64,000 nt of DNA from Nitrospirota bacterium (GTDB taxonomy: Bacteria; NPL-UPA2; JAADIA01): positions 6,407 through 70,406 of the forward strand of contig JAADIA010000079.1 in the NCBI GenBank assembly GCA_013151555.1, read 5' to 3'. This document shows, one piece after another, positions 58,604-63,469 of the stretch. The position numbers and the translations under genes were made by a program. Each line of letters begins with the position of its first letter. The stretch's first letter is position 1. The notes beneath the pieces are model-generated. The model had not been told where the DNA came from, did not search any database, and saw only the letters and a program-made list of their open reading frames with translations.

Positions 58604-59314
58604 TCAATGGGGGCCGATGTCGTCGGCTGTATCTTGAGTGCCATCCGGACCAATACTGATAAACTGATTAGCGCCGGTTTTCTTTACATAATTATTTCCC
58701 CACTCGTCACTCTGGTAAGTTACTCCGATGTAAGCGGGAACTAAATCGCTAATCTGGGTAGGATAACTGTTTCCCGGTACATTATCATATTCTTCAGCAG
58801 CGGCATTAACTTTATCCAGCTCATCCCGGACCCGTTCTTTTCGTTCCCTGATCATATTGTAGCTGATAACCCGGATAAGGTCGTTGTTGTAATCCAGACT
58901 GGTCCCGGAGTTGCTATCATCCTGACCATTGTGTCCGTAACTATAAAGCAAGATACTATTTGGAGTTGAGCCCCCGGTAGTGTCATAGGAAGGATCGTAA
59001 TAATAGCTTTTTTGCCAGGCATCTTTTGTATAATCGTCGTTAGGTTGAGTAGTCATGTAAGGACCGTCCCACCCGCTCACGCCCGGATCAGTGTTAAGAT
59101 CAGCCAGGGTAGAAGGAAGTTCTGTAGTATCCTGGTAGTACATATTTATAGCCGTTTCTATATTTCCCATCTCTTCCCGGGTGGCTTCCTTTCCCTTTAT
59201 TCGCAATGAGGTCCCAATAAGAGGAATAGCAATGCCTGCCATCAGGGCAAGGATAGCAACCATAACAACAACTTCGATTAAGCTGAAGCCTCTTTCTTTA
59301 CCCCTCTGTGTCAT
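58604..59314 (-). CDS. type II secretion/type IV pilin-like pseudopilin (GspG-like)
   Basis: 236 aa. Prepilin signal QRGKERGFSLIEVVVMVAILALMAGIAIPLIG, with Glu at mature position 5. The globular part has TTELPSTLADLNTDPGVSGWDGPYM, the GspG-style WDGPY loop, but lacks the usual GspG C-terminal Ca site and ends with a second domain containing DQFISIGPDGTQDTADDIGPH-like Asp-rich turns. Located directly after pilC (37 nt). Probably the major or a minor fibre subunit. Confidence 0.88.
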   Translation of the reverse strand: MTQRGKERGFSLIEVVVMVAILALMAGIAIPLIGTSLRIKGKEATREEMGNIETAINMYYQDTTELPSTLADLNTDPGVSGWDGPYMTTQPNDDYTKDAWQKSYYYDPSYDTTGGSTPNSILLYSYGHNGQDDSNSGTSLDYNNDLIRVISYNMIRERKERVRDELDKVNAAAEEYDNVPGNSYPTQISDLVPAYIGVTYQSDEWGNNYVKKTGANQFISIGPDGTQDTADDIGPH

Positions 59315-59351
59315 TATGCTTCACCTCCGCAATGATTTGGTTTGCAACCTC

Positions 59352-60553
59352 TTATTTCCCGATGAGACTCAGGGCCTGGTATAAAGGAAGGAAAGTTGCC
59401 GCCAGGACAAAGAAAACCACAAGACCGGCAAAGATAATTATCAGCGGCTCCAGAAGGGCTATGTTTAACTGTTTGAGGAACCTCCCGGTCATAAAACTCA
59501 TTTACTTTGGTTAGGGTCTGTTCCAGACGGCCGGTTTCTTCTCCTACAGCCAACATCCGGGTAACCAGGGGTTGAAATTCTCCACTCACCCGCAGGGATT
59601 CGGCAATGGTTTCACCATTGGCTACCTTCAGCCGGGTATTTTTTATCGATTGAGCCATACAGGCATTGCCGATCACCTTTTCCACAATCCAAAGAGCTTC
59701 GGTTATCCCTACTCCGGCATGGTACAGGCTGGCCAGGGTATGAGAGAAGCGCGAGGCGCTCGTTTTGCGGATTAACTCTCCGAAAAGGGGAAGCTTAAGC
59801 TTTCAGGCGGTCGATTTGCAACCTTCCTCCCGGCGTTCTTCCAATCATCTTATAAGTGATAATACTGACGATTAAACCGGCCAGGATAACAATCCATTGG
59901 TTTCGAAAAAAACTGCTTGTTGACAGAAGAATACGGGTAGGCAAGGGTAAAGGCGAACCTGTCGTTGTATAGATGATCATAATACGGGGTACTAAAACAG
60001 TTATGACTATGATTATCAAGCCTATAATAGCCGTGAGTAAGAAGGCCGGATAAATTACCGCCTGAGTTATAATTCCTCTTGTTTCTTCCTGCCACTCCAA
60101 TTGCGCAGCTAAACGGCTGAGGACATCTTCCAAAGATCCGGTAGCTTCCCCGGCTCGGATCATACTTACATATAGCTCTGAGAATATTTGGGGATATTTA
60201 TCCATAGCTTCGGAGAGAGTAGCTCCTCCTTCAACATCTCGCAAAAGGTTCTCTATTACTTTCCTGAACTTTTCGTTCTCTGTCTGCTCCGCTAAATCCC
60301 GGAGTCCTACCCGGATGGATATCCCGGAGGCTTCTATCGTGTTCAAATGATGAGTGAACATGATGATATCTTTTCTTTTTATCCGGCCGGAAGGAGCCAG
60401 GACCTTTTTTTTCTCCTTAACCATCCGGGTCCGGGTTAGCACATAGCCAAGGTTACTCAATTTGCCGGCTAACTGGTCCTCTGATTCGGCAGACATCGCT
60501 CCCCGCACGATCTTACCAAACTCGTCTCTTGCCTGATAGGTAAAGGTGGCCAT
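59352..60553 (-). pseudogene. pilC: PilC/GspF inner-membrane platform protein, broken by two frameshifts
   Basis: The region encodes a full-length GspF/PilC in three frames. Frame 1 (60553-59795) runs from ATFTYQARDEFGKIVRGAM through GGRLQIDRLKA and stops. Frame 2 resumes as LKLPLFGELIRKTSASRFSHTL, NEFYDREVPQTVK, then loses phase. Frame 3 gives LNIALLEPLIIIFAGLVVFF to TAA at 59352. The first site is GAAAGCTTAAGCTTCC (near 59797-59803): dropping one base restores the frame. The second is near 59472. The remaining genes of the system are intact, so it may be sequencing error or true decay. Confidence 0.85.
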
Positions 60554-60618: not shown

Positions 60619-62310
60619 TCATCCTTCCGTTACCCTCATTACTTCGGAGATGGTAATTAACCCTCTTTTTGCTTTCTCTATTCCGTCATCTCGCATAAGC
60701 TTCATTCCTTGCTTCAGCGCTTCTTCTCTAATCTCTTCTTCAGAACCCCGCTGGACGACTAACTCGTTTATTCTTTTATTAGGGATGAGAATTTCAAAGA
60801 TGCCGATTCTTCCCCGATAGCCTGTTCTTGTGCAGTGCTCACATCCTTTTCCCTCATATAGTTCCGGGACCACTTCGCCTTCTCTCAGCTTCATCCAGGC
60901 TATCTCCTCGGGAGAAGGGGTATAAGACACCTTGCACTTAGGGCAGATTTTACGGGCTAACCGTTGGGCAATTGCGGCGGCAATGGAAGAGGAGAGTAAA
61001 AACGGTTCAATCCCGGTATCCAAAAGACGGGGAATAGCTCCACAGGCACTATTAGTATGCAAACTGCTTAAAACAAAGTGGCCGGTCAAAGCGGAGCGAA
61101 TAGCAATCCCGGCTGTTTCTTGATCTCTTATTTCTCCTACCATAATCACATCCGGGTCCTGGCGCAGGATAGACCTTAACCCGGCGGCAAAAGTCAACCC
61201 CCCGGCAGGGTTCACTTGAGATTGACGGATCAAAGGCAGCTGATATTCTACCGGATCCTCGATGGTCATAATATTTCTTTCCAGGGAATTTATCGTGGTT
61301 AGGATCGAGTAGAGGGTAGTTGTTTTGCCCGCTCCTGTAGGCCCGGTTACTAAAAGAATCCCATGAGGTTTTTCCACAATTGTTGTTAAGCGGGACAGGG
61401 TTTGAGAAGAGAAACCTAACTCTTCCAGACCGAGAACCAGATTACTCTTGTCCAGAACGCGCAGGACAATATTCTCTCCGAAAACAGTGGGATAAATGGA
61501 GACCCTCAAGTCAACCTCTTTGTTACTGGTAGTGAACTGAATTCGTCCGTCCTGGGGAGCTCTCTTCTCGGAAATATTGAGGTTGGCCATTATCTTGATA
61601 CGGGAAATAATCGCTGCCTGCAGCTCTTTTGGAGGAGACGGTCCCTGATAAAGGATACCGTCTATGCGGTAGCGGGTACGGATTAATTTTTCTTCCGGTT
61701 CAATATGAATATCCGTCGCTCGGTCAACAATTGCCTGAGCGATAATCTGGTTGACTAATTCAATTATGGGAGGCTCGATGAAGATGCCTTCACTTACCTG
61801 AGTGGAATCGCCCGTAGAGGTTGTTACCTTTGAAGCTCGTCCAATGGTTTCCTCTATTAAGTTATCCAGGGAGCCTGCGGTCCCGTAATATTGATCGATG
61901 GCTTTCAAAATCTCTGTTTCGGTAGAGGCGACTACCTTTACCATGTAACCGGTCTTCTGTTGGATGGCATCTATCGCCATAATGTCATAGGGGTCTACCA
62001 TAGATACGGTTAAGGTATTATCTTCCAGAAAGAGAGGAATAAACCGATGACGCTTAGCCAACTCTTTAGGTATCTTCAATAATAAAGAAGGGTCTATGGC
62101 ATAGTTGGATAAGGAGACGTGGGGGATGTCTAATTCGGAGGAGAGTACCCGGGACAGATTTTCTTCAGTAATGAAACCCAGGTTTTTTAGGATTGTTCCT
62201 AACAGTTCCCCCGTCCGTTTTTGCTCGCGCAGAGCAATATCTAACTGCTGTGAGGTAATCAACCCCTCATCGATTAGTCTCTGCCCCAGAGCTTTTCTTT
62301 TTCCTGCCAT
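60619..62310 (-). CDS. pilB: PilB/GspE assembly ATPase
   Basis: 563 aa. N-terminal MshEN domain (GQRLIDEGLITSQQLDIALREQKRTGELLG; known to bind c-di-GMP in MshE), then the N2 and ATPase domains. Walker A GPTGAGKTTTLYSIL (~residue 328), Asp box IMTIEDPVEYQ, Walker B GLRSILRQDPDVIMVGEIRDQETA, His box TGHFVLSSLHTNSA, and the four-Cys zinc site CPKC/CEHC. No PilT is present in the window. AGA-rich weak SD before ATG 62310. Confidence 0.96.
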   Translation of the reverse strand: MAGKRKALGQRLIDEGLITSQQLDIALREQKRTGELLGTILKNLGFITEENLSRVLSSELDIPHVSLSNYAIDPSLLLKIPKELAKRHRFIPLFLEDNTLTVSMVDPYDIMAIDAIQQKTGYMVKVVASTETEILKAIDQYYGTAGSLDNLIEETIGRASKVTTSTGDSTQVSEGIFIEPPIIELVNQIIAQAIVDRATDIHIEPEEKLIRTRYRIDGILYQGPSPPKELQAAIISRIKIMANLNISEKRAPQDGRIQFTTSNKEVDLRVSIYPTVFGENIVLRVLDKSNLVLGLEELGFSSQTLSRLTTIVEKPHGILLVTGPTGAGKTTTLYSILTTINSLERNIMTIEDPVEYQLPLIRQSQVNPAGGLTFAAGLRSILRQDPDVIMVGEIRDQETAGIAIRSALTGHFVLSSLHTNSACGAIPRLLDTGIEPFLLSSSIAAAIAQRLARKICPKCKVSYTPSPEEIAWMKLREGEVVPELYEGKGCEHCTRTGYRGRIGIFEILIPNKRINELVVQRGSEEEIREEALKQGMKLMRDDGIEKAKRGLITISEVMRVTEG

Positions 62311-62576: not shown

Positions 62577-63125
62577 TTAGTTCCCCAGAACGAGAACACC
62601 GATGTCATCTCCCCCAAGAGTTTCGTTTTGATCGGGAGTCTCTACTACCCCGTTAGGGCCGGCTGAAAGAACCCAGACGTTATCAGGATTGGATGCCGAT
62701 CCTCGGCCCCAGAATCCATCGGAGCTAACGATATAACGTTTGCCCCAAGGGTCTGCGGGCATAGCTTGCATATAAGGACCGTCCCAATTGGAACCGCCTC
62801 GGTTTCCGGTATTATCCCGGAGATAATAGTAAAGAGGTTCCGCATTGCCATCGTTGAAATCGTTTGAAGTAGGAGTGGTTCCCCCATTTCCATAGAGCCA
62901 TTCAACGGTATTCGCTCCTTGGGCTCCAGTCGGCCAGAATCCGGTATCCTTCTTATACATGGCAATAGCCGTAGCGATGTTTTTAGTTTCTGCCAGGGCT
63001 TTGGTCTTGGATGCCGACTCTATCTGGCGGAAGACATAGGGAGTTATTATCCCGGCAATTATAGCGATGATGGTTACGACTACGACCATCTCAATTAAGG
63101 TAAAACCTTTATTTGCTTCTTTCAT
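62577..63125 (-). CDS. GspG-like pseudopilin controlled by a c-di-GMP riboswitch
   Basis: 182 aa. Prepilin signal EANKGFTLIEMVVVVTIIAIIAGIITPYVF, cleavage after Gly7. The globular part has KALAETKNIATAIAMYKKDTGFWPTG, WDGPYMQAMPADPWGKRYIV, DPW and calcium-like Asp-rich end NETLGGDDIGVLVLG, the T2SS GspG / PilE-like pattern. It is monocistronic with its own terminator. Start ATG 63125 with GGAGGG a few bases upstream. Upstream it has a riboswitch, a terminator and two promoters, so it is the regulated fibre subunit of the system. Confidence 0.93.
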   Translation of the reverse strand: MKEANKGFTLIEMVVVVTIIAIIAGIITPYVFRQIESASKTKALAETKNIATAIAMYKKDTGFWPTGAQGANTVEWLYGNGGTTPTSNDFNDGNAEPLYYYLRDNTGNRGGSNWDGPYMQAMPADPWGKRYIVSSDGFWGRGSASNPDNVWVLSAGPNGVVETPDQNETLGGDDIGVLVLGN

Positions 63126-63227: not shown

Positions 63228-63264
63228 AAAAAAGCCAAGCTACCATATCTTCGGTAGTCTGGCT
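63228..63264 (-). terminator. riboswitch-linked rho-independent terminator
   Basis: On the minus strand, AGCCAGACTACC pairs with GGTAGCTTGGCT around GAAGATAT, followed by TTTTTTC. It forms the expression platform of the c-di-GMP switch. Confidence 0.9.
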
Positions 63265-63307
63265 GTCTTAGCAAGTTTTCCTGTTCCTCTGGCAGTACCT
63301 CGTTATC

Positions 63308-63392
63308 GGTACGCCAGGCTGTCTTAGCAGAAAAAACCTACCTTAGACCCTATGACTTTGCGTCCCCGAATTTCTCCGGGTTTGCCTTTTCG
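63308..63392 (-). promoter_or_regulatory. cyclic di-GMP-I (GEMM) riboswitch aptamer
   Basis: On the minus strand, GGCAAACCCGGAGAAATTC leads into GGGGACGCAAAG, TCATAGGGTCTAAGG and a closing GCTAAGACAGCC. CCCGGA-GAAA-TTCGGG is the P1b hairpin with its GAAA tetraloop. GACGCAAAG and the GGGTCTAAGG/GACAGCC strands are the invariant c-di-GMP-I motifs. The leader begins at the promoter near 63434. A second copy of TGCTAAGACAGCC lies 44 nt downstream (63261-63273), at the start of the terminator stem. Confidence 0.9.
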
Positions 63393-63440
63393 GATATGAA
63401 CCCTTGAGAGTAACAATCATTTCCTCTTAAGCTCAAAGTG

Positions 63441-63469
63441 ATTATACCCAAAAATAACCATTTTGTCAA
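63441..63469 (-). promoter_or_regulatory. distal promoter P1 of the pseudopilin gene (riboswitch transcript)
   Basis: On the minus strand, TTGACA (63469-63464), 17-nt spacer, TATAAT (63446-63441). Both boxes match the sigma-70 consensus exactly. Transcripts would pass through the riboswitch. Confidence 0.88.

Follow-up and report, generated by a model that had tools for sequence, protein, structure and literature searches.

The pilM riboswitch of Geobacter metallireducens is a GEMM-I element that responds to cGAMP and acts as an ON switch (PMC9262584). In pilM, the 5′ arm of the terminator includes the 3′ strand of the aptamer, so that bound aptamer and terminator are mutually exclusive, and the element is located before pilus genes. 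A similar arrangement is found in the leader analyzed here, which lies on the minus strand of a 64,000-nucleotide stretch of DNA (referred to as the window; coordinates are positions in it unless another locus is named) before a pseudopilin operon. Its aptamer has two candidate 3′ halves, copy 1 and copy 2, and it is copy 2 that doubles as the 5′ arm of an intrinsic terminator, as in pilM. However, no second 3′ half appears in the description of pilM, on which our comparison is based, whereas in the present leader copy 1 and a further hairpin (H1) sit inside the P3b loop.

Three other systems share some of these features. Cd1 of Clostridioides difficile is a c-di-GMP-I OFF switch in which the aptamer likewise controls a terminator, and which binds c-di-GMP without a P1 helix, as copy 1 might (PMC9262584); however, the antiterminator strand of Cd1 is complementary to the aptamer 3′ strand and is not a copy of it. 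In tandem c-di-GMP-I riboswitches (Bc3-5, PMC4759541; survey, PMC9481103), c-di-GMP-I parts are also doubled within one leader, but these are complete aptamers, each with its own expression platform, whereas only a 3′ half and a hairpin are doubled here. Finally, Bc1 of Bacillus thuringiensis (PMC11218506) has a long expression platform with two hairpins behind its one aptamer, although both hairpins are described as typical terminators and a copied aptamer strand was not found in the text of that paper. We found no description of a duplicated riboswitch 3′ half in the open-licence literature.

A duplicated 3′ half in the leader of a pseudopilin operon

The 13-mer TGCTAAGACAGCC occurs at 63329-63317 and again, identical over all 13 nt, at 63273-63261, i.e. 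with a period of 56 nt; an earlier reading of the sequence alone had placed both copies at exactly these positions. As that reading also gave it, the strand then continues as TGGCGTACCGA in copy 1 and as AGACTACCGA in copy 2. In shuffles of approximately the same dinucleotide content, an exact direct repeat of 13 nt was seen in 1 of 2000, and the gapped match of the two 3′ halves (TAAGACAGCCTGGCGTACCGA / TAAGACAGCCAGAC-TACCGA) was reached in none of 1000. The likeness extends beyond the 13-mer, in that the leader contains two parallel units, each consisting of a 3′ half and a hairpin. Copy 2 runs into the 5′ arm of the intrinsic terminator (63228-63263; stem 63263-63234, then T6), as the sequence-only reading had noticed. 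Absent from that reading was that copy 1 likewise runs into a hairpin, namely H1 (63317-63289, arms CTGGCGTACC / GGTACTGCCAG), whose 5′ arm is copy 1 and which is not followed by a U-run. With its duplicated 3′ half, the leader is a real, unusual variant of a known riboswitch class.

All features of the leader are on the minus strand. A sigma-70-type promoter (TTGACA-17-TATAAT, 63441-63469), with 12 of 12 consensus matches, precedes the aptamer 5′ half (63337-63400), which comprises the P1 5′ strand, GGCAAAC, P2 with its GAAA loop, GACGCAAAG and the P3 5′ strand. Copy 1 (TGCTAAGACAGCCTGGCGTACCGA, 63306-63329) and H1 follow, and then a strand that is able to extend P3b with copy 2 (63270-63281, GGAAAACTTGCT pairing with GGTAGGTTTTTT). 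Next are copy 2 itself (TGCTAAGACAGCCAGACTACCGA, 63251-63273) and the 3′ strand of the closing helix P1 (GATATG, 63244-63249), whose partner is CATATC in the 5′ half.

The first downstream gene (62577-63125) encodes a GspG-like pseudopilin (T2SSG, 6.5e-12; N_methyl, 6e-08), and the next (60619-62310) a GspE/PilB-type ATPase with a c-di-GMP-binding MshEN domain (T2SSE, 6.2e-135; MshEN, 1.4e-22), in which the c-di-GMP motif NF053729 scores above its cut-off. Both genes are on the minus strand. A second sigma-70-like promoter (TTGACA-17-TATATT, 11 of 12 matches, minus strand) is found at 63207-63179, between the terminator and the pseudopilin gene; since it lies past the terminator, it may allow transcription of the operon that bypasses the riboswitch. 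Further downstream, GspF appears split (59314-60553, minus strand): its N-terminal part is encoded as 252 aa at 59795-60553, and an ORF resembling the C-terminal part in sequence stands apart from it at 59314-59685, which suggests a frameshift or an assembly error.

Assignment of the 3′ halves to the aptamer

The Rfam model RF01051 (c-di-GMP-I), which excludes P1, has a single match in the leader, at 63396-63305, that runs through copy 1 and scores 66 bits against a curated threshold of 35, with full coverage of model positions 1-87. In the Rfam alignment, P2 is CCCGGA-GAAA-UUCGGG with a GAAA tetraloop, and the core strings GGCAAAC and GACGCAAAG are present. A G at the position that we take to be that of Vc2 G20 points to c-di-GMP rather than cGAMP as the ligand.

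The canonical spacing of the 3′ strand and the P1 closing helix are found with copy 2 and are lacking with copy 1. In a pattern search, the distance from [AG]GC to the base before [AG]CCG was 9 nt in 30 of 30 aptamers of other genomes; it is 9 nt in copy 2 as well, which agrees with the sequence-only reading that copy 2 comes nearer to the usual spacing, and 10 nt in copy 1, which has one extra core base. In the sampled aptamers P1 most often starts 2 nt past CCG, and at this site copy 2 offers CAUAUC/GAUAUG, whereas copy 1 has no such helix. Copy 2 further has four outer pairs that are all Watson-Crick (AGUC/GACU), with ACCGAA between them and the P1 strand. When the two alternatives were scored with an HMM built from 29 sampled aptamers of other genomes, copy 2 obtained 38.7 bits in the window and 37.5 bits in a paralogous element of the same genome (see below), compared to 33.5 and 31.8 bits for copy 1.

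Taken together, the spacing, the AGUC/GACU pairs, the register of P1 and the HMM scores indicate that copy 2 is the canonical 3′ half, and by its sequence copy 2 looks like the working one. The earlier framing, in which copy 1 belonged to the aptamer and copy 2 was the extra, is thus probably reversed, and the Rfam boundary at copy 1 is probably misleading. It should be noted that copy 1 may bind c-di-GMP too, by analogy with Cd1, which binds it without P1 (PMC9262584).

Related leaders in this and other genomes

The genome contains two c-di-GMP-I matches, of 66 and 64 bits, the second being at L002 1501-1592. This paralogous element is 90% identical to the one in the window over 242 bp, from the TTGACA-17-TATAAT promoter, which is aligned in both, through the terminator, and it has the duplicated 3′ half too; the DNA flanking the two elements is unrelated. 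From P1 to the terminator, the paralogs differ at 16 of 173 nt. Only 2 of these differences fall in the 64 nt of the aptamer 5′ half, both in P2 and both pair-preserving, and none in the 34-nt stretch that extends from copy 1 through the loop of H1. In P2, the P3b formed with copy 1, H1 and the terminator, all 7 changed pairs keep a standard pair; among them are two in H1 (10 pairs in each paralog) and two in the terminator (11 pairs in each). Of the pairs that are special to copy 2, 5 are changed, with 2 kept and 3 broken (two in distal P3b and one in P1): the proximal 7 pairs of P3b are conserved, its distal part loses 2 of 5 pairs in the paralog, and P1, which has 6 pairs in the window and whose register matches that of other aptamers (e.g. 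L003), has 5 of 6 there because of an A.C mismatch. As evidence from two sequences, the pair-preserving changes are suggestive only.

Downstream of the paralog are genes for a membrane protein that weakly resembles sensor kinases, for a pilin-FecR protein and for one with the domains CHASE2-GAF-HD_5. The last (L071 4494-6752), in the operon behind the paralogous riboswitch, is an HD-GYP-type c-di-GMP phosphodiesterase. There are six GGDEF matches in the genome; together with the MshEN ATPase and this phosphodiesterase, they constitute a c-di-GMP biology that fits the riboswitch.

Among 130 sampled c-di-GMP-I aptamers that were tested, a non-random sample in which many come from the same genomes, 7 have a second 3′ half at p ≤ 0.01 (shuffles), where about 1 would be expected. 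These belong to three lineages, namely: this genome (2 elements); one genus of another phylum (L098, L081, L183 and L179r); and L091r, whose relative L154r is weaker (p 0.019). Some of the terminators inspected show a weak similarity to the 3′ strand (p 0.01-0.1) and were left uncounted. The four leaders of the L098 family are orthologous, each from a different genome of the genus, and have one 5′ half and two 3′ halves about 30 nt apart. As in the window, copy 2 of this family has the canonical core and lies in the terminator 5′ arm, and the core of copy 1 is off by one base; unlike in the window, H1 is absent between the copies and it is copy 1 that carries P1 (GGUAUU/AAUACC). In the two members for which folding was predicted, it stays with copy 1; a compensatory change from C-G to U-A, again with copy 1, is seen in one member. 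The layout thus recurs in unrelated lineages, in which the division of labour may differ. In L091 and L154, which belong to one family, the 5′ arm of the terminator is similar to the 3′ strand of the aptamer but has UUCGG at its end in place of ACCG; AAGCCAGCCG is repeated in L091.

A scan of 84,980 species genomes with an architecture pattern gave three matches, none with an Rfam match, and the same scan of viral contigs gave one, which has no Rfam match and falls within a reading frame of 593 aa; we regard all of these as chance matches. Because the pattern is strict and missed the L098 family, little weight attaches to this negative result. In relatives of the same order and phylum there was no RF01051 match and no DNA match, and phylum-wide searches around three other genomes led to single-species phyla.

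Folding during transcription and the mode of switching

The folding of both paralogs was computed by imposing helices at growing transcript lengths, using equilibrium nearest-neighbour energies that include neither tertiary contacts, ligand, kinetics nor polymerase; the structural evidence is thus computed, and from two related sequences. The order of folding is alike in both: the first partner of the 5′ half is copy 1, from which it is parted by H1; it then moves on to copy 2, before the terminator begins to compete. The cost of the copy 1 core is 2-3 kcal/mol as long as H1 has not emerged; it is 5-7.5 kcal/mol just afterwards and then rises to about 9-10 kcal/mol. H1 itself, once transcribed, is within about 0.5 kcal/mol of the whole ensemble. 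The copy 2 core, which is compatible with H1, costs 0.7-0.8 kcal/mol at 188-200 nt, where copy 1 costs about 9-10. In terms of base-pair probability, the P3 5′ strand is on copy 1 at 0.90-0.99 until about 164 nt (0.98 at 164 nt) and on copy 2 at 0.98 and 0.82 in the two paralogs by 188 nt. Once completed, the terminator dominates: the copy 2 core then lies above it by 7.4 kcal/mol in the window and 9.8 kcal/mol in the paralog; in the full-length paralog, the P3 5′ strand is about evenly split between the copies with the terminator formed. An aptamer on copy 1 is compatible with the terminator, whereas full pairing with copy 2 excludes it. The computation therefore bears out two proposals of the sequence-only reading, namely that the 5′ half can pair with either copy and that pairing with copy 2, which supplies the terminator arm, traps that arm.

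The explanation that we prefer, with moderate confidence, is that the leader is a transcriptional c-di-GMP-I riboswitch of the pseudopilin/GspE operon that acts as an ON switch, with copy 2 as the working 3′ half and with copy 1 and H1 as an early placeholder. Activation by c-di-GMP is favoured because copy 2, the 3′ strand of the aptamer, serves at the same time as the 5′ arm of the terminator, as in pilM. When c-di-GMP is bound, the 5′ half would hold copy 2 in P3 and P1, so that the terminator is blocked and transcription goes on; without ligand, the terminator would take copy 2 and transcription would stop. Copy 1 and H1 would represent a duplicated, partly degenerate unit of 3′ half and hairpin inside the P3b loop. 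The repeat, the paralog, the pairing options and the pair-preserving changes are observed, whereas ligand binding, the sign of the switch and the handover are inferred; in the handover, copy 1 would pair first with the 5′ half, H1 would then strip the lower part of copy 1, and the 5′ half would pass to copy 2 by strand exchange. The likely role of the insert would be to hold the 5′ half in a folded state and postpone the decision; alternatively, it would be a retained by-product of the duplication. Since the terminator wins by 7.4-9.8 kcal/mol at full length, switching must rest on kinetics and ligand energy. The suggestion that the duplication is itself the switching device finds no support: copy 2 and the terminator already make a complete ON switch of the pilM kind, and removing the 56-nt unit of copy 1 and H1 in silico shifts the full-length balance between aptamer and terminator by only 0-0.5 kcal/mol at 37°C and by at most 1.1 kcal/mol at any temperature tried (1.1 being reached at 25°C), so that the switch as such does not require the duplication. 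Against the placeholder explanation, conservation is lower in the pairs that only copy 2 forms, there is no thermodynamic need for the insert, and copy 1 may bind as well.

This lack of effect would also be expected if a tandem duplication of the 3′ half and terminator had left copy 1 and a dead terminator, H1, that have no present role, with copy 2 working alone. We consider this rather unlikely. The two units are homologous along their whole length, and H1 has the stem layout of the terminator with the U-run missing; however, copy 1 and H1 are retained in both paralogs, the 34 nt showing no difference and H1 only pair-preserving changes, against 16 differences elsewhere in the 173 nt, and duplicated 3′ halves recur in unrelated lineages. 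The argument from conservation is weakened if the paralogs arose only recently, as they may have. That the similarity is due to chance, or that the leader is an ordinary tandem riboswitch pair, is scarcely credible: the repeat exceeds nearly all shuffles and its layout is kept in the paralog, and although c-di-GMP-I riboswitches are the commonest tandem class (PMC9481103), the leader has one 5′ half and one Rfam match rather than two complete aptamers.

An OFF switch with copy 1 as the sensor is, in our view, unlikely. Here c-di-GMP would fix the 5′ half on copy 1, leaving copy 2 free for the terminator to form, and without ligand the 5′ half and copy 2 would make an antiterminator, which is close to what the sequence-only reading had proposed. 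Rfam scores the aptamer through copy 1, which is transcribed first and whose aptamer is compatible with the terminator; Cd1 binds without P1, and the unrelated L098 family has its P1 on copy 1. However, the extra core base of copy 1 was unseen in the 30 sampled aptamers and a canonical P1 is absent. In addition, without ligand the copy 2 core lies about 0.75 kcal/mol above the ensemble while the decision is made, which corresponds to roughly 25-30%, and the terminator then wins by 7-10 kcal/mol, so that the ligand-free ON state would be weak. Quite improbable, finally, is that one 5′ half serves two mutually exclusive aptamers, with early binding on copy 1 giving OFF and later binding on copy 2 giving ON; if true, such a dual-aptamer RNA would read the level of the ligand against the speed of transcription, e.g. 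as a band-pass or time-gated sensor.

Under the preferred explanation, an ON switch ahead of the phosphodiesterase in the paralogous operon would give negative feedback. Annotation tools for riboswitches settle on the nearest 3′ half that matches, which in this leader is probably not the right one. Should the handover be real, the leader would be a natural riboswitch that builds its aptamer by exchanging one copy of its 3′ half for the other, and the co-transcriptional choice between near-identical strands could be tested directly. That duplicated 3′ halves recur in three sampled lineages suggests a design of expression platform that has been overlooked.
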